A stretch of DNA of 64,000 nt, taken from positions 372,001 to 436,000 of the forward strand of contig NZ_CP059491.1 in the NCBI RefSeq assembly GCF_014041935.1, written 5' to 3'. Under the pieces are notes generated by a model, which was given only the letters and a program-made list of their open reading frames with translations, did no database searches and had not been told where the DNA came from. Shown piece after piece: positions 50,201-59,307 of this stretch (position 1 is its first letter; every line of letters starts with the position of its first letter). Both the position numbers and the translations under genes were made by a program. Source of the DNA: Gordonia jinghuaiqii. GTDB lineage: Bacteria > Actinomycetota > Actinomycetes > Mycobacteriales > Mycobacteriaceae.

Positions 50201-50361
50201 AGCGCGGACCCCTCCTCGCTTGTGGCAGCCGGATCGCACCTGTTGGGTGGTGCCGGCTCGGGTTTCGTCCTACTCGTGCCGCCGGTCCGATCTGGGCCCG
50301 CCAGTACGAATGTGAGCTACAACACAAGCCTAGGTGAGCGGCTGGCGGGAGTCACTGTTTT

Positions 50362-50769
50362 CTAGAGTTCGGCGTTTCTGACCATGTCGACGAAGGCGCG
50401 CGGCAGGGCGATGGGATCGACCGGCAGGGTGGCCACTGCGTCGGCGCGGGACCAGTCGGCGAGCCAGCGGTCGTCGGCGCGACCGAGGAGGACCAGGACC
50501 GGGGGGCTGGGGTCGAGCTCGTCCTTCATCTGCTTGGCCACGCCCATGCCACCCGCCGGAGAGGACTCGCCGTCGGCGATCACGACGTCGATGACGCCGG
50601 CATCGAGTTGCGCGAAGACCATTGGCGCGGTGGCGACCTCGATGAAACTGAGGACCGGGATGGCGGGATCGGGACGGGTGCCGAGCGTGTTGATGACCTG
50701 TGCGCGCGTCTCGGAATCGTCGGAGTAGACCAGTACACGCAGCGCCCGGGCAGCCTGGGGGTCGGTCAC
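50362..50769 (-). CDS. Atypical response-regulator receiver protein (Rv3143-like)
   Basis: A 135-residue stand-alone receiver-like protein. It has LRVLVYSDDSETRAQVINTL with an Asp pair at the acidic pocket, VIDVVIADGESSPAGGMGVAK with the candidate phosphoacceptor Asp, and LLGRADDRWLADW. There is no output domain. M. tuberculosis Rv3143 lies near nuoA and is reported to interact with complex I. This gene is likewise just upstream of nuoA and in the same direction. It probably modulates complex I by protein contact. Confidence 0.8.
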   Translation of the reverse strand: MTDPQAARALRVLVYSDDSETRAQVINTLGTRPDPAIPVLSFIEVATAPMVFAQLDAGVIDVVIADGESSPAGGMGVAKQMKDELDPSPPVLVLLGRADDRWLADWSRADAVATLPVDPIALPRAFVDMVRNAEL

Positions 50770-50954
50770 GGTTGCGATGCTACCGCCGGGGGTGGCGGGG
50801 TTTGGGGGGTTTGTGCGACCTGACGGGTGGCGGTCTGGTGTCCCGGCGCGGTGGCCGGTGGAAAGTCGGTGTGGCGGTGCGTGTTCTGAGGCCGGGCGCT
50901 GATCCTCCGAAACTCGGACGGGCCACGATGTGGGTCAAATGTACGAAATGTCGG

Positions 50955-51016
50955 GGTTTGCATTGCGCTCCGACGCTCTCTAGGGTGAGCCTAGCCTTAG
51001 TTAGGCAATGCAAACC
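50955..51016. promoter_or_regulatory. Iron-box-like site inside a perfect 12-bp inverted repeat
   Basis: GGTTTGCATTGC (50955-50966) and GCAATGCAAACC (51005-51016) are exact inverted copies. Between them, 50981-50999 reads TAGGGTGAGCCTAGCCTTA, matching about 13 of 19 positions of the DtxR/IdeR box TTAGGTTAGGCTAACCTAA. TTAGTTAGGC follows directly. It ends 22 bp before the binding-protein gene, so it probably contains its promoter and operator. Confidence 0.65.
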
Positions 51017-51038
51017 TGAATAGAGAGTTGTTGCCGAG

Positions 51039-52694
51039 ATGTCGTACACCCACACGAGGGCGCGGCGGTCTGTTGCCGCCTTGTCGCTGTGCCTCGTCCC
51101 CGTACTCGCCCTGACCGCGTGCGGCGGCGGCGATTCTGACGCCGACCGCGCCGCCGGGCCGGAGACCGCCACGACGCTGACCGTCGCGACCAACAAGGAC
51201 GCCGGACCGCTGAACATCTTCGCCGGTCAGACCGACCAGATGACCGAGCTGGTGTACGACAAGCTGCTCGCGCCGTCGCCATATGTGGCGGAGCCGCAGC
51301 CGTGGCTGGCGACTTCCGTCGAACAGGTCGACGCGAAGACGTGGGAGGTCGGCCTGCGGGACGACGTGAAGTGGCACGACGGCGAGAAGTTCACCGCCGA
51401 CGACGTCATGTTCAGTTTCCACTTCATGCATGCCGCGCCCACCGGCCGGTTCACCCACCACATCAACGACACCCCGTCGATCTCGACCGTCGTCCCCACC
51501 GACGACGGCGGCGTCCGCTTCGTCTGTGACTACGCGTGCCCCGAGCTGGGTACCGTCACCCTCGCCGATCTCCCGATCCTGCCCGAACACGTGTGGTCGG
51601 CGGTCGACCCCGCCGACGTCAAGCAGGTCACCGACCTGCCGATCGGCACCGGGCCGTTCAAGCTCGTCGACTACAGCCCGACGTCGGGCTACCGCTTCGA
51701 GGCCAACACGGAGTACTTCGCGGGCAAGCCGACCGTCGACGAACTGAAGATGCCGGTGATCCCCGATGCGTCGGCCACCTTCACCGCGCTGCGTTCGGGC
51801 GAGATCGATGCGACCACTCGCCCGCTGAATCCCGAACTGGTCGACCAGTTCAAGTCGACGCCCGACATCGGTGTCATCGAGGCCGCGCCGCTGCAGTACC
51901 CGGAGCTCAAGCTGAACTTCCTCGAGGAGCCCTTCGCCGAGGCCCGCTTCCGTACCGCGGTCAGCCGTGCGGTCGACCGTGACCAGCTGCTCGACGTCGT
52001 CGCGCTCGGCCGCGGGCGTCCCGCGACGCAGGGTTACGTCCACCCCGACGCGCCGTACGCGAAGCCGGACACCAACACCCCCTACGACGCCGACGAGGCG
52101 CGCACCATCCTCGACGAACTCGGGTACCGCGACGTCGACGGTGACGGCAAGCGTGAGAAGCCCAACGGTGAGAAGCTGCCGCTGACGCTCTACGTCGACG
52201 GCGGGCTCGCCCCCGACGTCCGGGCCGCCGAACTCCTGCAGGAGGACTTCGCCGCCGTCGGGATCGACGTCTCGATCAAGGCGCTCGACGCCGGGTCCAT
52301 CTCGGAGGTCAGCTCCGACAAGTCCTACGACATGCTGATCACCACGAATTCGCCGCACGCCGTTGCCGATTCGACGCAGTTCATCATGTCGCACCGCTCC
52401 GGCAACCTGTGGAAGCACCCGAGCCTTCCCTACCCGGAGTTCGACGCCCTCTACGAGGAGTGGAAGGCCACCGAGACCAACGAGGACCGGATCAACGCGC
52501 TGTACAAGATCCAGGACGTCTTCAACAAGCAGCCGACGGCCATCGGCCTGTACTACCCCGAGGAGTACTGGGGCTACCGGTCGGACAAGTTCGGCGGCTG
52601 GGTCGTGACACCCGGCTACGGCATCGTCCAGAAGTGGTCGTTCCTGCCCCGTGACGTCGCCGAGAAGGCGCACGCGATAGCTCCGAACGACTGA
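51039..52694 (+). CDS. ABC transporter family 5 substrate-binding lipoprotein
   Basis: A 551-residue lipoprotein. The signal ends at lipobox LTAC (Cys near 28) before a GGGDSD spacer. The family 5 (DppA/OppA/NikA) domain has the region WEVGLRDDVKWHDGEKFTADDVMFSF. These proteins bind peptides, nickel or metal-chelator complexes. The iron-box-like site upstream suggests a metal or metallophore ligand, not ordinary peptides. It is the first gene of a plus-strand operon with all transport parts following. Confidence 0.88.
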   Translation: MSYTHTRARRSVAALSLCLVPVLALTACGGGDSDADRAAGPETATTLTVATNKDAGPLNIFAGQTDQMTELVYDKLLAPSPYVAEPQPWLATSVEQVDAKTWEVGLRDDVKWHDGEKFTADDVMFSFHFMHAAPTGRFTHHINDTPSISTVVPTDDGGVRFVCDYACPELGTVTLADLPILPEHVWSAVDPADVKQVTDLPIGTGPFKLVDYSPTSGYRFEANTEYFAGKPTVDELKMPVIPDASATFTALRSGEIDATTRPLNPELVDQFKSTPDIGVIEAAPLQYPELKLNFLEEPFAEARFRTAVSRAVDRDQLLDVVALGRGRPATQGYVHPDAPYAKPDTNTPYDADEARTILDELGYRDVDGDGKREKPNGEKLPLTLYVDGGLAPDVRAAELLQEDFAAVGIDVSIKALDAGSISEVSSDKSYDMLITTNSPHAVADSTQFIMSHRSGNLWKHPSLPYPEFDALYEEWKATETNEDRINALYKIQDVFNKQPTAIGLYYPEEYWGYRSDKFGGWVVTPGYGIVQKWSFLPRDVAEKAHAIAPND

Positions 52695-52695
52695 G

Positions 52696-53718
52696 ATGTC
52701 CGCTGACCGACTGCGGTCGCTCGCCCGGCGAGTCGGCCAGTATCTGCTGGTGCTGTGGGCGGCGGTGACCCTCAACTTCGCGCTGCCGCACCTGGCGCCG
52801 GGAGATCCGGTCGTCTATCTGTACGGCGGCGCCGAGGGAAACCTCGCGCCCGAGTACGTCGCCCGGATTCGTGCCGAATACGGCCTCGACCAGAGCATCC
52901 CGGAGCAGTACCTGTCCTTCTGGGCGGGCCTGCTCCGGGGCGACCTGGGCATGTCGGTGTCGATGAACCGGCCGGTGTTCGACGTGCTGATGGACAAACT
53001 GCCGTGGACGGTGGCGCTGGTCGGCCTCGGCATGTTGTTCGCCGCGGTGCTCGGCACCCTCCTCGGAACCTGGGCGGCGTGGCGTCGTGGGACCAAGCGG
53101 GAGACCGCGACCCTGACCGCGACGCTCGCGGTCGACTCGATGCCGGGCTTCTGGGTCGGCATGATCCTCATCGCGATCTTCTCCGTCGGGCTCGGCTGGT
53201 TCCCGTCGTACGGCGCCGCGACCATCGGTGCCGAGGGCTGGGCCTGGTTCGGCGAGGTCATCGCGCGGCTTGTGCTTCCGGTCGCCACCCTGACGATCGC
53301 CAGCATCGGCGGCTTCTTCCTGCTGTCCCGGGCGTCGACGGTGGTCGTGCTCGACGAGCCGTACATCCGTCTCGCCCGGGCCAAGGGCCTGCGCGAACGG
53401 CAGGTCGCCATGGGGCACGCGATGCGCAACGCTCTGCTACCGGTCTTCACCACTCTCACCCTCGCCGTGGGCACCATGCTGTCGGGGGCAGTGGTCGTCG
53501 AGACCGTCTTCTCCTACCCCGGGCTGGGCAAGCTGACCTACGACGCGGTGACCACCCGCGACTATCCGCTGCTCCAGGGCGCGTTCCTCCTGGCGACGAT
53601 CGGCATCATCGCGGCCAACATCGTCGCCGACCTCACCTATCCACTGATCGATCCGCGGGTCCGGCGCCGGCGCGCCGAGACGGCCGAACCGTCTCCACAG
53701 GAAGCGGTTTCGTCATGA
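52696..53718 (+). CDS. ABC transporter permease (DppB/OppB-like)
   Basis: A 340-residue permease with about six helices. The conserved permease segment is RLARAKGLRERQVAMGHAMRNALLPV (the EAA loop), and TVVVLDEPYIRLARAKG precedes it. MLSGAVVVETVFSYPGLGKLTYDAVTTRDYPLLQG is a family hallmark. It begins 1 bp after the binding protein and overlaps the fused permease-ATPase gene by 4 bp (ATGA). Confidence 0.92.
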   Translation: MSADRLRSLARRVGQYLLVLWAAVTLNFALPHLAPGDPVVYLYGGAEGNLAPEYVARIRAEYGLDQSIPEQYLSFWAGLLRGDLGMSVSMNRPVFDVLMDKLPWTVALVGLGMLFAAVLGTLLGTWAAWRRGTKRETATLTATLAVDSMPGFWVGMILIAIFSVGLGWFPSYGAATIGAEGWAWFGEVIARLVLPVATLTIASIGGFFLLSRASTVVVLDEPYIRLARAKGLRERQVAMGHAMRNALLPVFTTLTLAVGTMLSGAVVVETVFSYPGLGKLTYDAVTTRDYPLLQGAFLLATIGIIAANIVADLTYPLIDPRVRRRRAETAEPSPQEAVSS

Positions 53719-55436
53719 AACGGGCAACCGATGTGCAACGGGGCGGGCCCACCGTCTCGTCGAGATCGCGGACCAGCGCCATCGTCGGCGCGAGCATTCT
53801 CGGTGTCCTGGCGGTGTGTGCGATCTTCGCACCGTGGATCTCGCCCCACGATCCCGGCGAGCGCGTCACCCGGCCGTTCGCGCGACCCTCCGGCGACCAC
53901 TGGCTCGGATCCGACGACGCAGGCCACGACCTGCTGTCGATGCTGCTGCACGGCGCGAAGATCTCGTTGACGGTCGGCATCATCGCGGGGCTGGCGGCCA
54001 CCGTGATCGGCGCACTGGTCGGCATCATCGCCGGCTACTGCCGCGGGACGATCGACGCGGTACTGATGCGCATCACCGATGTGGTGCTGTCCCTGCCGGT
54101 CCTGCCGCTGACGATCGTGATCGGGGTGTTCATCGGTCCCGGTCTGACCACGCAGATCCTGGTGATCTCCGCGGTCCTGTGGGCGGGCCTGGCCCGCGAA
54201 CTGCGTTCGCAGGTGCTGTCCCTGCGTGAGCGCGATCATCTGCAGGCGCTGCGGTCGATGGGCGCAACCACACCGTATGTCCTTCGACGCCATGTCTTTC
54301 CGGCGGTGGTCCCGCTGGTGGTCCCGCAGTTCATTCTCGCCACCAAGACGGCGGTGCTCCTCGAGGCGTCGTTGTCGTTCCTCGGCCTCGGCGACATCTC
54401 GGCACCCAGCTGGGGATCGATGTTGTCCCTGGCGCATCAGCGCAGCGCGTTCCTCACCGACGCCTGGATGTGGTGGGTGGTGCCGCCGGGTATCGCGATC
54501 GCCGCGACCGTGCTGGGTTTCGCCCTGATCGGCAACGCGCTGGAGGAGCGGTCACGCCCGATGCTGGTGCGACGGAAGAAGTTGTCGAGAAGGTCTGTGC
54601 CCCAGCGGATCGTCGCCGGTATGCCCGATGCCGACGCACCTCCCCTGCGGATCTCGCACCTCTCGGTCTCCTACAGCGAGGACGGGCGTCCGACGGTCGA
54701 CGATGTGAGCCTGACCGCGAAGGCGGGCGAGATCGTGGCCGTGGTCGGCGAATCCGGCAGCGGCAAGTCCACTGTCGCCGCGGTCACCGTCGGGCTGCTG
54801 TCGCCGGCGGGAGAGATCACCGCGGGATCGGTGGAGATCTGCGGACGGGACGTCGCCGCCATGCGGCCCGGAGAACTCCGGGCCATGCGCGGCAACGACA
54901 TCGCCCTCATCCCCCAGGAGGCCATGAGTGCGCTCGATCCCGTGCAACGCATCGGTGACCAGCTGATCGAGGCCATCTGCGTCCACCGTGATGCAACGCG
55001 CGAAGAGGCACGTGCCCGCGCGGTCGAGCTCCTCGGACTGGTCGGGATCGACGCCGGCCGGATCGGGGCCTACCCGCACGAACTCTCCGGCGGCATGCGT
55101 CAGCGCGTCGTGATCGCCATCGCCCTGGCCAACGATCCGACCGTCCTCGTCGCCGACGAACCGACCAGCGGCCTCGACGTGCTCGTCGAGGTGGAGGTGC
55201 TCGATCTCCTGGCCCGTCTCCGCGACGAGCTGGGTCTCACCGTGCTGCTCGTGTCGCACAACCTGGCCGCGGTCGAGCGGATCGCCGACACCATCGCGGT
55301 GATGTACGACGGGCGGATCATCGAGTCCGGACCGACGGCCGCGCTGATGGCCGACCCGCAGCAGGAACACACCCGCGATCTGCTCGGCGCACTACTCCGT
55401 CTGCAGCCGGCCGCAACGGAACTGGTGGGCTCATGA
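53715..55436 (+). CDS. Fused ABC permease-ATPase (DppC-DppD-like)
   Basis: A 573-residue fusion. Residues 1-280 are a DppC-type permease (HWLGSDDAGHDLLSMLLHGAKISLTVG, the EAA loop LQALRSMGATTPYVLRRH). After a basic linker, residues 310-573 form an ATPase. Walker A is G345-ESGSGKST353, the signature is LSGGMRQRV and Walker B is VLVADEPTSGLD. In most Dpp/Opp systems these are two genes. The single frame is continuous from ATG 53715. Confidence 0.92.
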   Translation: MKRATDVQRGGPTVSSRSRTSAIVGASILGVLAVCAIFAPWISPHDPGERVTRPFARPSGDHWLGSDDAGHDLLSMLLHGAKISLTVGIIAGLAATVIGALVGIIAGYCRGTIDAVLMRITDVVLSLPVLPLTIVIGVFIGPGLTTQILVISAVLWAGLARELRSQVLSLRERDHLQALRSMGATTPYVLRRHVFPAVVPLVVPQFILATKTAVLLEASLSFLGLGDISAPSWGSMLSLAHQRSAFLTDAWMWWVVPPGIAIAATVLGFALIGNALEERSRPMLVRRKKLSRRSVPQRIVAGMPDADAPPLRISHLSVSYSEDGRPTVDDVSLTAKAGEIVAVVGESGSGKSTVAAVTVGLLSPAGEITAGSVEICGRDVAAMRPGELRAMRGNDIALIPQEAMSALDPVQRIGDQLIEAICVHRDATREEARARAVELLGLVGIDAGRIGAYPHELSGGMRQRVVIAIALANDPTVLVADEPTSGLDVLVEVEVLDLLARLRDELGLTVLLVSHNLAAVERIADTIAVMYDGRIIESGPTAALMADPQQEHTRDLLGALLRLQPAATELVGS

Positions 55437-56197
55437 GCCTTCTCGAGATCTCCGGACTGTCCGTCGAATTCCGTGGACACACCGCGGTCGACGACGTGGA
55501 TCTGCGCGTCGACGCCGGTGAATCCGTGGCCCTGGTGGGAGGTTCGGGCGCAGGTAAGTCGACGGTCGCGAAAGTGGTCGCCGGCCTCGTCGCCCCCTCC
55601 GCGGGTGCGGTGACCTTCGACGGCGTCGATATCCTCTCGCTGTCCCGCCGCAAGGCCCGCCCACTGCGGCGCGACATCCACCTGGTGTTCCAGGACCCGT
55701 ACGCCTCGCTGCCGCCGACGCTGAGGGTCGCCGACATCGTCGCCGAGCCCTTGGTGATCCACGGAATCGGCAACCGGACCGAACAGTCGGATGCGGTGGC
55801 CCGCGCACTCGAAGCGGTGAATCTGACACCGGCGCAGGACTATCTGAACCGTTTCCAACATCAGCTGTCCGGTGGCGAACGGCAGCGCGTCGCATTCGCC
55901 CGGGCCGTGGTGGCACAACCGCGGCTGATCCTGGCCGACGAACCGACCAGCGGCCTCGACGCCTCCCTGCGGATGGAGATCATCGACCTGATGGACCGGC
56001 TGTGCCGCGTCGACGGCATCGCGATCGTCCACATCACCCACGATCTGGCTCTCGCACAACGCGGTTCGAGTCGCGTCGTGGTGATGCGCGCCGGGCGCGT
56101 CGTCGAATCAGGCCCGGTGGACGAAGTGCTGTCGGCACCCCGAGACCCCTACACTGCGCGACTCGTATCAGCCGCGAGTCGCCCGCGGGACAAGTGA
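55433..56197 (+). CDS. ABC transporter ATPase (DppF-like)
   Basis: A 254-residue ATPase. Walker A is GGSGAGKST near residue 36-44, the Q-loop region is LVFQDPYASLPP, the signature is LSGGERQRVAFARA and Walker B is ILADEPTSGLD. It overlaps the fusion by 4 bp (ATGA). It provides the second nucleotide-binding half of a heterodimeric importer. Confidence 0.92.
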   Translation: MSLLEISGLSVEFRGHTAVDDVDLRVDAGESVALVGGSGAGKSTVAKVVAGLVAPSAGAVTFDGVDILSLSRRKARPLRRDIHLVFQDPYASLPPTLRVADIVAEPLVIHGIGNRTEQSDAVARALEAVNLTPAQDYLNRFQHQLSGGERQRVAFARAVVAQPRLILADEPTSGLDASLRMEIIDLMDRLCRVDGIAIVHITHDLALAQRGSSRVVVMRAGRVVESGPVDEVLSAPRDPYTARLVSAASRPRDK

Positions 56198-56208
56198 GAG
56201 AAGGATTG

Positions 56209-57561
56209 ATGACAAAGTTCGCCATGGTGACGATGTACCCGACGGGGGAGGGCTCGCCCTTCGCCGAGGGGAAACTCGGCTTCGACGTCACCGGAATCGA
56301 CTGCTACGCCCTCGACGACGCCGCCCTCGCACCGTTCGACGTGCTGGTGTTCTCCTCGACCGTCGACCAGGAACACCTCGCCCGGAATCGCGATGTGATC
56401 CGTCGCTTCCTCGACGCCGGGAACGTGGTGGTCTTCGGCGGCCACCTGCACCGTGACTGGCTCCCCGGCACAAGGCCTTTCGAGCCGGCCATGCCGCAGC
56501 GCCGGGCCACCTACGAGGTCACCGAGGTCGCCGACCATCCGATCTTCGCCGGGGTGACGTCCCTCGACATGGACACCCGGCGCGGAGTGCGCGGCTTCTT
56601 CGCACGAGGCCATCACCCGGTACCCGAGGGCGCCGAAGTGCTGGTCCGGCTCGTCGGCGGACAGGCGACCACCTACATCGACCGGGTGTCGACCGCGGGC
56701 ACAATCCTCGTCCACGCCACCGCCGACCTGTTCGCCTATTCGTCGGGCATCGAGGACAGCACGGCCGCGCGTATCCCCGCGCAGCTCGCGCAGTGGGCGT
56801 GTGACGAGGTCGACGACCTGCGCGCCACCCCGCGACCGGCGGGCAACGCGCCGACGGAGCCGTGGGAGAAGCTGCCCGCAAGCCCTTCCACCGGAACGGG
56901 TTCGGGCGTCGCGGCCGTCTACGGCGGCAATGCGCATCACCACCGGGCGCTGACCATCGAGAAGTACGGCGAGCACGTCACCGGCGGCCTGCTGTACCTG
57001 CCCGAGCTCGCCGACACCGACCTGCGCGGGTACGACGCCCTCATCATCCCCGAGCGAATCCATCGCGGACACTTGAACGCGGCCGCACCCCGGATCCTCG
57101 AGTTCCTCGAATCCGGCGGCACCGTCATCGCTTTCAGCGGCGGCGAGCCGCTCGCCGAATTCCTGCCCGGTGTCCACTGGGCGCATCGTCCCACCAACTA
57201 CTGGTGGTGGCTCGAGGACGGTGCCGACATGGGCCTGCGTTCCCCGAACCCCGACCACTCCTTCTTCGAGCGCCTCGAACTGAAGGACTGCACATGGCAT
57301 TACCACGGCGTCGTCGAACCGCCCGCCGGTGCGCAGGCGCTGGTCGACCTGCCGACCGATGAGACACTGCTCTACGTCGACGAGGTGAGCACGCCGGGCA
57401 CACTGGTGATCTCCACCCTCGACCCGATGTCCCACTTCGGCGCCTATTTCATGCCCGCCACCGAACGCTTCCTCGACGGGTTCATGCCGTGGGTCCCCGA
57501 GTTCGCGTCCGCCCAGGCACGCAAGAAGCGCCCCCTCACCACACAGGAGTCGATCCGATGA
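56209..57561 (+). CDS. Duplicated amidotransferase/ThuA-like protein, unknown function
   Basis: A 450-residue cytoplasmic protein. Two halves share a pattern: FDVLVFSSTVDQEHLARNRDVIRRFLDAGN...VVFGG near 45-80 and YDALIIPERIHRGHLNAAAP...ILEFLESGGTVIAFSGG near 285-320. Each looks like a class I glutamine amidotransferase/ThuA-type Rossmann domain, including the GG-ending beta-strand, but the usual catalytic Cys-His set is not seen. FSSTVDQ and the conserved WWWLEDGADM region are likely substrate sites. It is in the ABC operon and coupled by 4 bp to the next gene. The role is inferred: processing or sensing of an imported ligand. Confidence 0.55.
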   Translation: MTKFAMVTMYPTGEGSPFAEGKLGFDVTGIDCYALDDAALAPFDVLVFSSTVDQEHLARNRDVIRRFLDAGNVVVFGGHLHRDWLPGTRPFEPAMPQRRATYEVTEVADHPIFAGVTSLDMDTRRGVRGFFARGHHPVPEGAEVLVRLVGGQATTYIDRVSTAGTILVHATADLFAYSSGIEDSTAARIPAQLAQWACDEVDDLRATPRPAGNAPTEPWEKLPASPSTGTGSGVAAVYGGNAHHHRALTIEKYGEHVTGGLLYLPELADTDLRGYDALIIPERIHRGHLNAAAPRILEFLESGGTVIAFSGGEPLAEFLPGVHWAHRPTNYWWWLEDGADMGLRSPNPDHSFFERLELKDCTWHYHGVVEPPAGAQALVDLPTDETLLYVDEVSTPGTLVISTLDPMSHFGAYFMPATERFLDGFMPWVPEFASAQARKKRPLTTQESIR

Positions 57562-58061
57562 CACTGAAGCTCGCCGACCAGGGAAAGATCCTGGCGTTCG
57601 ACATCGATGACGTGATGCTCTACCACGGGCCGGGCTTCCCCGGCGGCGTTGCGCACGCATACAAGGTGCTCGAGCGTGCCCTGCCGCTGCTCGGCGAGGA
57701 GGGGACCGTCGAGCGTCGCGACGTCCGCGTCGGCACCGCGCATCGCGGGCCCGGTGTGCGGGACACGATGGAGATGGTGCTACGCGCGGTCACCGAGGAC
57801 CGGTTCACCGTCGACTCCGCGCTCGAACGCACCGACCGCGGAGAAACATTGGAGCGCTATGTCTTCGAGCTCGGGTACCGCGACAATCTGGTCCGTCTCG
57901 AGATCCGCGAGGGGTTCGTCACCGACGAGTTCATCCAGCTGGGGCGCAAGGCGTCCCGCACCGACGCCGAGGACGTTCGCCTCACGGCACTCAAGCAGGA
58001 AATGGCCGACCGGCTGCTCGCCGCACCGGCCGACCAGGTCTACGACGTCGTCGGAGACTGA
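57558..58061 (+). CDS. FmdE-like small protein
   Basis: A 167-residue protein. The segment FDIDDVMLYHGPGFPGGVAHAYKVLERAL resembles the HGHxCPGxAxGY motif of FmdE-type (formylmethanofuran dehydrogenase subunit E-like) proteins, though the Cys is absent. DVRVGTAHRGPGVRDTMEMVL supplies a second conserved block. FmdE-family proteins may bind metal or cofactor, but functions differ. It is the last gene of the ABC operon, overlapping the previous stop by 4 bp (ATGA). The family call is moderate. Confidence 0.5.
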   Translation: MTLKLADQGKILAFDIDDVMLYHGPGFPGGVAHAYKVLERALPLLGEEGTVERRDVRVGTAHRGPGVRDTMEMVLRAVTEDRFTVDSALERTDRGETLERYVFELGYRDNLVRLEIREGFVTDEFIQLGRKASRTDAEDVRLTALKQEMADRLLAAPADQVYDVVGD

Positions 58062-58066
58062 AACGG

Positions 58067-59143
58067 TCAGTGCTCGGTGGAGAACCCGACGCGGCGTCGG
58101 TGCACCTCGAGCGCGAAAGTCACCAGCTGGTCGATGAGATCCGGGTAGGCGACGCCGCTGGCCTCCCAGAGCTTGGGGTACATCGAACCGGGGGTGAAGC
58201 CCGGGATGGTGTTCACCTCGTTGAGTAGCCAGCCACGCCCGGGCTCCTCGTAGAAGAAGTCCACCCGCGCCATGCCGGTGCACCGCATCGCGGTGAAGGT
58301 GCGGGCGGCGAGCTCGCGGACCTCGGCGGTCGCGGCATCGGAGACCTGCGCCGGGATGACCAGTTCGGCCGCGCCGGTGACGTACTTGTCCTCGTAGTCG
58401 TAGAACTCGCTGCCCGGCTTGATCTCGCCGGGCACCGAGGTCTCGGGTGCCGTGTCGCCGAGAACCGCCACCTCGATCTCACGTCCGGTCACGGCCTCCT
58501 CGATGATGACCACGTTGTCGTAACGCAGCGCGAGGTTGATGGCGGCATCTAGTTCGGGCTCGTCGTGGGCCTTGGTGATTCCGACCGAGGACCCGAGATT
58601 CGCAGGCTTGACGAACACCGGCAGACCGAGTTCGTCGATGGCGCGGGTCGTGATGGAGGTGGGGTCGTCGACGCCGTCGCGGAACTCGACCCAGCGGCAC
58701 TGCGGGATGCCTTCCTGCGCGGCGACGATCTTGGCCAGGGCCTTGTCCATGCAGACGGCCGACGACAGGACCCCGGCGCCCACGTAGGGCAGCTTGAACA
58801 GCTCGAGCATCCCCTGAATGGTGCCGTCCTCACCGTGGGGGCCGTGCAGCAACGGGAGGACGACCGTGATCGCCTCGTCCGCGTGACCACGCAGCTCGGT
58901 CAGCGGCTCCACCGCGGTTCCGTCAACCTCGAGCGCGTCGGGCAGCGGCGTGCCGTCGGTGATGGCGGCAATCGCCTTGTCGTTGCGCAGCCAGGTGCCG
59001 TCCTTCGCGATCCCGATGGGTACGAGGTCGTACTTGGTGCGGTCGGCAGCTGCGAGGACGTGCGCCGCGGTGACCCGGGACACATCGTGTTCGGCGGAGA
59101 CGCCACCGTAGAGAACCACCAGACGCAGCAGCCGAGAAGACAT
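58067..59143 (-). CDS. ddl: D-alanine--D-alanine ligase
   Basis: A 358-residue ATP-grasp ligase that makes D-Ala-D-Ala for peptidoglycan. The N-terminal motif LVVLYGGVSAEHDVSRVTAAHVL and the VLPLLHGPHGEDGTIQGMLELF motif are diagnostic. FVKPANLGSSVGI and the late GMARVDFFY-x-LNEVNTIPGFT are the ATP- and substrate-binding blocks. ATG 59143 is preferred over GTG 59152. It is convergent with the FmdE-like gene and divergent from murF. Confidence 0.95.
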   Translation of the reverse strand: MSSRLLRLVVLYGGVSAEHDVSRVTAAHVLAAADRTKYDLVPIGIAKDGTWLRNDKAIAAITDGTPLPDALEVDGTAVEPLTELRGHADEAITVVLPLLHGPHGEDGTIQGMLELFKLPYVGAGVLSSAVCMDKALAKIVAAQEGIPQCRWVEFRDGVDDPTSITTRAIDELGLPVFVKPANLGSSVGITKAHDEPELDAAINLALRYDNVVIIEEAVTGREIEVAVLGDTAPETSVPGEIKPGSEFYDYEDKYVTGAAELVIPAQVSDAATAEVRELAARTFTAMRCTGMARVDFFYEEPGRGWLLNEVNTIPGFTPGSMYPKLWEASGVAYPDLIDQLVTFALEVHRRRVGFSTEH

Positions 59144-59307
59144 GCCTGCCACGATACGGCCCCCCGCATTCGAGTTCTCTGTGTGTCGGGGTCCGTTCGG
59201 GGAGCTCGGGTGGCACGGGCCTCGATCGCGGCTGTCGTGTGGGGTCGGGCGTGCGGGGATGTATCCGCGACTCGGGGCGGTGGACGGGCGTCGACTAGCG
59301 TGGACCC

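Follow-up and report, generated by a model that had tools for sequence, protein, structure and literature searches.

Organization of the operon

The window (the whole 64 kb stretch of Gordonia jinghuaiqii DNA that was analysed) carries six reading frames at positions 51039-58061, each verified at the coordinates given below, and two predicted iron boxes directly upstream of them:

50981..50999, forward strand: IdeR/DtxR-like box 1 (TAGGGTGAGCCTAGCCTTA), 14 of 19 positions matching the consensus TTAGGTTAGGCTAACCTAA
51001..51019, forward strand: IdeR/DtxR-like box 2 (TTAGGCAATGCAAACCTGA), 14 of 19 positions matching TTAGGTTAGGCTAACCTAA, 20 bp from box 1
51039..52694, forward strand: family 5 substrate-binding lipoprotein (PF00496, SBP_bac_5, 258.5 bits)
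52696..53718, forward strand: ABC permease of the OppB/NikB type (PF00528 and PF19300)
53715..55436, forward strand: permease (OppC type)-ATPase (OppD type) fusion in a single frame (PF12911, PF00528, PF00005)
55433..56197, forward strand: second ABC ATPase, OppF type (PF00005)
56209..57561, forward strand: ThuN-ThuC, a tandem GATase1/ThuA-fold protein with no conserved catalytic Cys
57558..58061, forward strand: FmdE-fold protein without the usual metal-ligand motif

An earlier note on this DNA had described the six genes as coupled, and their spacing bears this out: a single base separates the lipoprotein gene from the first permease gene, 11 bases lie between the second ATPase gene and the ThuA-like gene, and the remaining junctions are ATGA overlaps, the starts of the permease-ATPase, second ATPase and FmdE-like genes each lying within the preceding stop. 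That note had not mentioned the fusion of permease and ATPase in the third gene. Together, an SBP_bac_5 protein (258.5 bits against a Pfam cut-off of 32.4), two BPD_transp_1 permeases and two ABC ATPases make up a predicted family 5 importer of the Opp/Dpp/Nik group, an identity that follows directly from the sequence families. The Peripla_BP_2 and FecCD proteins of siderophore-type importers are not found in the operon, being present in related clusters, and no siderophore synthesis gene is found among the six. An Rfam scan of positions 50300-58300 returned no match at E<=1, and a riboswitch explanation was therefore dropped; no sigma-70-like promoter was found within 50770-51060.

Predicted iron control

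The iron-box-like promoter site proposed in the earlier note is real and stronger than had been claimed, as there are two 14/19 boxes rather than one. These are the only sites in the 64 kb that match TTAGGTTAGGCTAACCTAA at 13 or more of 19 positions, and none of 2000 first-order simulations gave two such sites in the window promoter. The stricter core AGGNNAGNCTNNCCT, with one mismatch allowed, occurs twice in the window against 1.0 expected, which alone is not significant. Across the genome (5.18 Mb), box 1 is one of five places with at most three mismatches to TWAGGTWAGSCTWACCTWA (none in the control), the other four adjoining an NRPS gene, a DUF2470 gene, the sdh genes and a GMC oxidoreductase gene near aconitase. 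The genome encodes two DtxR-family proteins, and both components of an IdeR/DtxR regulon, a promoter box and a regulator of this family, are thus present. Control of the operon by iron through an IdeR/DtxR-type regulator, as predicted from these sites, is strongly supported and very probably correct.

Similar boxes precede related genes in other genomes. In 27 loci, that of the window among them, the promoter regions (10,158 bases) contain 30 box matches and the other 527,702 bases a single one, a ratio that is large rather than exact since some of the 30 are overlapping shifts of a single site; promoter positions, taken at the first gene of each operon, were chosen by us, some of them after the box matches were known, and the scan left out L019, L046, L047, L048 and L097. 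A box is present in 14 of the 17 loci that combine the cytosolic module with an importer and in only 2 of the 10 with an FmdE-like gene only. The same tandem arrangement of boxes 20 bp apart is shared by L013, L036, L040, L051, L017 and L052, and no box of at least 13/19 was found in L038 (best match 12/19), L054 or L098. Farther afield, the homologous operon of Paenibacillus starts with a Fur box (18/19), a Cupriavidus cluster with a TonB receptor has a Fur match (15/19) upstream, and the haloarchaeon locus has two DtxR-like palindromes (15/19 and 13/19), two kinds of box, DtxR-like and Fur, being found across four phyla. The best Fur matches in the alphaproteobacterial clusters (9-14/19) are mostly not above local background, L058 being the only one of these clusters whose locus-best match (14/19) lies before FecB.

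The cytosolic proteins

Searches of Pfam, NCBIfam and PDB sequences with the two cytosolic window proteins matched no named family above cut-off. Fold searches assign ThuN-ThuC to the GATase1/ThuA fold, its second half sharing the fold of 1t0b and 2gk3. At the sequence level, the match to ThuA (PF06283) is weak, made by the N-terminal half and below the cut-off (21.5 against a gathering score of 33.4), and only one of 32 alignment rows has a ThuA match at E<=0.1. The catalytic Cys of class I glutamine amidotransferases has no counterpart, there being no conserved Cys column in 19 ThuN and 20 ThuC rows, several of which have no Cys at all. The earlier description of this protein as amidotransferase-like therefore holds for its fold and fails for its catalytic residues. 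ThuN-ThuC differs further from ThuA and the amidotransferases in being duplicated, in being tied to importers and in the motifs carried by nearly all ThuC rows, which are common rather than universal (WWW in 25, WHxHG in 28 and DPxxH in 27 of 29 rows); the ThuC of L049, on a long branch, has neither WWW nor WHxHG. A PDB profile search with the ThuN/ThuC alignment gave no credible match, the best being to a nanobody at E 0.18.

The smaller protein (P0003) has, when searched alone, no FmdE (PF02663) match in Pfam. Weak FmdE matches at E<=0.1 appear in 12 of 34 alignment rows (best E 1.5e-4), and none of nine relatives scored singly exceeds the 22.9-bit cut-off (best 19.9). Fold searches nevertheless place its N-terminal domain in the FmdE fold, as in 2glz, 3d00 and 2gvi. 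Here again the label FmdE-like applies to the fold and not to the metal-binding residues: FHGHxC is replaced by YHGPGFPGG, keeping one His of the ligands His15, His17 and Cys19, and the position of the ligand Cys55 is, by eye, a Gly. The FmdE metal ligands are thus mostly lost. TAL-effector repeats returned by the FmdE-like PDB profile search were disregarded as repeat inflation, no single stretch being significant. According to a published survey, most PF02663 genes adjoin metal-ion transporters (PMC2954224).

Association with different importers

The 31 ThuN/ThuC loci that were read have four types of importer: FecBCD siderophore-type (17), Opp (12), SsuA/NMT1-type (1) and haloarchaeal type-I (1). 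L097, whose content is limited to a 43-residue ThuC match and an adjacent ATPase, is not in these counts. In the ThuC tree, the starred branches require the type of importer to have changed three times or more; the tree has 29 rows, the loci of swapped order L100 and L101 being counted as Fec loci and not placed in it, and the swapped-order rhizobial second copies (L057 4696-6057, L067 3365-4660) are in neither alignments nor tree. The lipoprotein of the window shares 39% identity with its counterpart in a Paracoccaceae module and at most 26% with its own-genome paralogues found by BLAST. The neighbourhoods of the two cytosolic families, proposed as a check in the earlier note, thus show repeated exchange between Opp-type and FecBCD-type importers. 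They also include TonB siderophore receptors, which adjoin the module in Methylocystis and Methylosinus; the receptor of the Cupriavidus cluster scores 187.4 bits with PF00593. ThuC and FmdE are fused in one frame in L045. FmdE-like genes stand without ThuN/ThuC in 9 of the 19 genomes searched, a further genome having a ThuC fragment only. Related clusters are also carried by plasmids of Rhizobium, Labrenzia, Proteus and Klebsiella.

Nature of the cargo

Because FecBCD importers replace the Opp-type one in related clusters, and because TonB siderophore receptors accompany some of them, the cargo is probably an iron chelate. The main rival is that a non-iron compound (an organophosphonate, organosulfonate, thiazole or peptide) is imported and broken down, with iron acting only as regulator, for instance where the compound stands in for another nutrient or chelates iron incidentally. 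C-P lyase genes share a cluster with FecBCD-FmdE and occur in 5 of the 14 FmdE-bearing plasmid loci examined (the loci examined being 14 of the 32 records that match P0002 and 14 of the 36 that match P0003), SsuA/NMT1-type importers accompany the divergent members L062, L070 and L068, and genes for a sulfonate-monooxygenase-like protein, hydroxyethylthiazole kinase and rhodanese lie near Rhodococcus members, as do ssuD/sfnG near the Methylocystis cluster. The haloarchaeal importer is likewise weakly nearest to 2-aminoethylphosphonate models, although its record names the permease an iron transporter. However, FecBCD is the commoner partner, siderophore receptors adjoin some clusters, the iron boxes of both kinds extend over four phyla, and the six genes of the window include none of these catabolic ones. 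We regard a non-iron cargo as unlikely.

Less likely still is heme import coupled to a new module for handling heme, in which the lipoprotein would bind heme like HbpA/DppA and the His-rich cytosolic proteins (ThuC and FmdE-like) would bind or open it. Structures of heme-binding protein A (3tpa, E 2.7e-21, and 3m8u) are among the sequence relatives of the lipoprotein, HemP adjoins L060, a hemin locus adjoins L068, and the FecB partners have weak scores with the heme-binding model IsdE. The best of these scores (68.9) is, however, far below the cut-off of 298.65, the solved structures scoring highest with the lipoprotein are peptide and nickel binders, and no heme oxygenase family is represented among the six proteins.

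The lipoprotein itself falls under the cut-off of all 11 NCBIfam models that it matches, which argues against import of nickel or cobalt metallophores in the manner of NikA or CntA. NikA (TIGR02294) is the top match, followed by Opp4A, Opp5A and CntA (NF047575), and the nickel ABC binding protein 5yhe, which we take to be CntA, ranks third among solved structures; yet the scores (163.7 bits against 393 for NikA, 125.8 against 800 for CntA) are insufficient and the control sites are iron boxes, and we consider this reading very improbable. Least likely of all is that the operon encodes a plain dipeptide importer and that the two cytosolic genes are unrelated passengers. This would fit the Opp-type architecture, but it can hardly explain the iron boxes, or why four types of importer, in several phyla, are accompanied by one or both of the cytosolic families.

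Proposed mechanism

The reading that best fits these observations overall, and a reasonably likely one, is that of an iron-starvation operon for import of an iron chelate and its processing in the cytosol. At low iron, an IdeR/DtxR-type repressor would come off both tandem boxes, allowing the six genes to be expressed; the lipoprotein would capture an iron chelate from outside the cell (a siderophore-like ligand obtained by scavenging), the Opp-type importer would bring it in whole, and ThuN-ThuC and the FmdE-like protein would dismantle it, freeing iron or salvaging the ligand. That this trio acts on the imported chelate is a view we favour by a little; we infer release in the cytosol from co-occurrence, the single ThuC-FmdE fusion and the conserved His and Trp residues. 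The earlier proposal of metal-chelate import and processing is partly upheld: partner exchange and TonB receptors support the association with chelate importers, and the chelate cargo and its processing are putative.

FecBCD/FhuBCD siderophore importers work with the cytosolic release enzymes Fes, SIP and FSR. The window system resembles them in its iron repression (here predicted), its lipoprotein and ABC importer and its cytosolic partner encoded alongside, and at 17 of the 31 loci read ThuN/ThuC is in fact accompanied by FecBCD. It differs from them in its Opp-type importer and in its FmdE-fold and GATase-fold partners, those of siderophore systems being an esterase, a flavin reductase or an Fe-S reductase. 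With NikABCDE and CntABCDF, which carry metal chelates, it shares the family 5 binding protein and Opp-type permeases and ATPases, and it is set apart from them by its scores far under their cut-offs, its additional cytosolic module and its iron box. According to the abstract of a paper on EDTA uptake in Chelativorans (EppA; PMC7312458), a chelator is likewise imported there through an ABC binding protein, for metabolism, the transported form being free EDTA and not metal-EDTA; unlike that system, the six window genes include no monooxygenase.

In a literature search of titles and abstract openings, with subscription journals mostly outside its scope, the module was not named anywhere. The match for FmdE and siderophore in that search concerned, as far as its abstract opening goes, the one-carbon metabolism of Pseudomonas putida. 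Methylphosphonate induces iron-uptake genes in Nodularia, in an account whose consulted portion does not mention the module (PMC5955973).

More speculatively, ThuN, ThuC and the FmdE-like protein could form an undescribed cytosolic machine that dismantles imported iron chelates without the reductive, esterase or heme-oxygenase routes, serving bacteria and haloarchaea with whichever importer suits the local ligand and, on some plasmids, coupled to C-P lyase so as to consume phosphonate-bearing chelators; this extension is tentative. To our knowledge, only a few chemistries have been described by which iron is released from a chelate after import, and two families with iron boxes that swap importers across phyla offer a testable candidate for another. 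Since some of the clusters have C-P lyase genes coupled to them, the related plasmid clusters may also tie iron to phosphonate nutrition.

Composition of the operon

The host genome is a single contig of 5,184,113 bases, on which the window occupies 372001-436000. The genes proposed to be coupled in the earlier note are indeed so arranged; they number six, and neighbours either overlap or lie no more than 11 bases apart:

51039-58061, + strand, operon of six genes, in order:
family 5 substrate-binding lipoprotein
permease
permease-ATPase fusion
second ATPase
56209-57561, + strand, 450-residue protein (halves ThuN and ThuC)
57558-58061, + strand, 167-residue FmdE-like protein

The importer is clearly identified by Pfam. 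The NCBIfam models nearest to its lipoprotein are NikA, Opp4A, Opp5A and CntA, and it scores far under the cut-off of each. It shares 39% identity with the lipoprotein of a Paracoccaceae module and at most 26% with the SBP5 paralogues found by BLAST in its own genome. Pfam and NCBIfam gave the 450-residue protein no more than a ThuA match below threshold, and gave no match for the 167-residue one; a PDB sequence search returned no credible relative for either, and Pfam detected no flavin, Fe-S or esterase domain among the six proteins. The features tested place the system outside the NikA, CntA, ThuA and GATase families; to FmdE it belongs only remotely, by fold. The operon is flanked by a 135-residue gene (50362-50769; sub-threshold HEAT_2 match only in Pfam) beside what we take to be the nuo operon, and by a presumably ddl-like gene (58067-59152).

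Iron boxes

The iron-box-like promoter site first noticed proves to be two sites, at 50981 and 51001, spaced by 20 bp and each matching the IdeR/DtxR consensus at 14/19 positions, with no further site of at least 13/19 in the 64 kb window. None of 2000 first-order simulations produced a promoter with two such sites (at least one site: 0.0005). Published DmdR1 sites of Streptomyces fit the consensus used (PMC7174319). A whole-genome scan with a degenerate consensus (at most 3 mismatches) found five places (control, zero), the first box and the following four:

in the gap separating an NRPS gene from an ABC ATPase gene
adjoining a DUF2470 gene and pheA
heading the sdh genes
upstream of a GMC oxidoreductase gene, with a TetR gene and aconitase adjoining

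Two DtxR-family proteins are encoded in this genome.

Across 27 loci including the window, matches of at least 13 number 30 in 10,158 promoter bases versus 1 in 527,702 others. Of the 17 loci that combine module and importer, 14 have at least one match, as do 2 of the 10 FmdE-only loci. The 20-bp tandem also precedes Opp-type operons L013, L036 and L040 and Fec-type operons L051, L017 and L052. In L095 (9256, 9342) and L096 (9990, 10076), where ThuN and the gene for the Opp lipoprotein point away from each other, the promoter region that they share holds two strong IdeR-like boxes (16/19 each). Clusters outside Actinomycetota carry sites too: in a Paenibacillus FmdE-ThuN-ThuC-Opp cluster, a Fur box of 18/19 starts 82 bases upstream of the first FmdE residue in the alignment (the frame as called extends across it), in Cupriavidus one of 15/19 is placed some 300 bases upstream of the start called for the TonB receptor heading FecBCD-ThuN-ThuC, and DtxR-like palindromes of 15/19 and 13/19 (L099, 5779-5836) stand just upstream of a haloarchaeal plasmid cluster, SBP-ThuN-ThuC-permease-ATPase, with permease and ATPase fused. 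Best Fur matches in alphaproteobacterial clusters (9-14/19) are mostly not above local background; as alphaproteobacteria often use other iron regulators, we read these as neutral.

Importer partners and distribution

The neighbourhood analysis proposed for both cytosolic families shows the module beside unrelated importers.

Importer partners of the 31 ThuN/ThuC loci read
Opp-type, 12/31: window, L013, L036, L037, L038, L040, L049, L095, L096, L098, L061, L064
FecBCD, 17/31: L017, L045, L051-L055, L057, L058, L060, L066, L067, L069, L100-L103
SsuA/NMT1-type, 1/31: L068
Type-I importer, 1/31: L099 (archaeon Natribaculum)

In L013, L036, L095 and L096, ThuN/ThuC is divergent or convergent relative to the importer genes, not in one operon with them. 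Opp and Fec rows interleave in the ThuC tree (29 rows), where parsimony requires four changes and the starred branches force three. TonB siderophore receptors surround the module in Methylocystis and Methylosinus, and in L045 a single reading frame comprises ThuC and the FmdE-like protein. Divergent copies in which ThuC precedes ThuN, each adjoined by a FecBCD importer, occur in L057 (4696-6057), L067 (3365-4660), L100 and L101.

ThuN/ThuC is sporadic, being found in 5/36 same-genus and 1/24 other same-order genomes (60 relatives), and in 4/396 genomes of the phylum sample, counting the window genome and one doubtful match (E 3.7e-4). FmdE-like genes occur in 14/397 genomes of the order sample; they lack a ThuN/ThuC match in 9 of 19 genomes searched, and one more (G287) has a fragment only. 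In L054 (18321-18634; genome G018) the FmdE-like match is split in two and skips about 55 residues of the query, which suggests that the gene may be broken.

Neighbouring pathways

Five plasmid loci, from Rhizobium, Labrenzia, Agrobacterium, Proteus and Klebsiella (L056 9083-16829, L058, L059, L063, L066), have a FecBCD-FmdE set followed by C-P lyase genes, and are C-P lyase sets coupled to a siderophore-type importer. PhnG, PhnH, PhnJ and two ATPases are present in all five (the Proteus stretch starts within the importer) and a LysR gene in four; PhnI is annotated in three, its position being a hypothetical gene in the Klebsiella record and not shown in that of Labrenzia. The E. coli plasmid pECOED (L062, 7995-11430) carries a divergent FmdE-like gene together with an importer of the SsuA/NMT1 type and a further small protein, also unknown. 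In Rhodococcus-group loci (L014 8992-13294, L015, L016, L018; L017; L036 1535-3205), the FmdE-like gene or module adjoins hydroxyethylthiazole kinase and alkanesulfonate-monooxygenase-like genes, in most cases also GntR and rhodanese genes, possibly forming a sulfur or thiazole pathway.

Proposed mechanism and cargo

When iron is low, the two boxes would be freed and the operon expressed, an iron dependence that the box evidence supports. The lipoprotein would then bind an external iron chelate, which the importer, Opp-type as its protein families establish, would carry inside; such a cargo is suggested by the exchange with FecBCD importers, by the TonB receptors and by the iron control. Linkage with unrelated importers and the ThuC-FmdE fusion suggest that ThuN-ThuC and the FmdE-like protein would handle the chelate in the cytosol, the candidate sites being a cluster of His and Trp residues in ThuC and, in the FmdE dimer, a groove described in PMC2954224. 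Between reductive and non-reductive release we commit to neither.

The operon would work in like manner to siderophore uptake and release systems, and at this level the concept is already known; the cytosolic pair did not appear in the portions of the literature that our search returned. The observation itself stands, and on firmer ground than a note made from the window could know. The largest doubt concerns the cargo: some relatives adjoin importers of the SsuA type or genes for C-P lyase, which means that the ligands served may be anionic compounds of a broader class.
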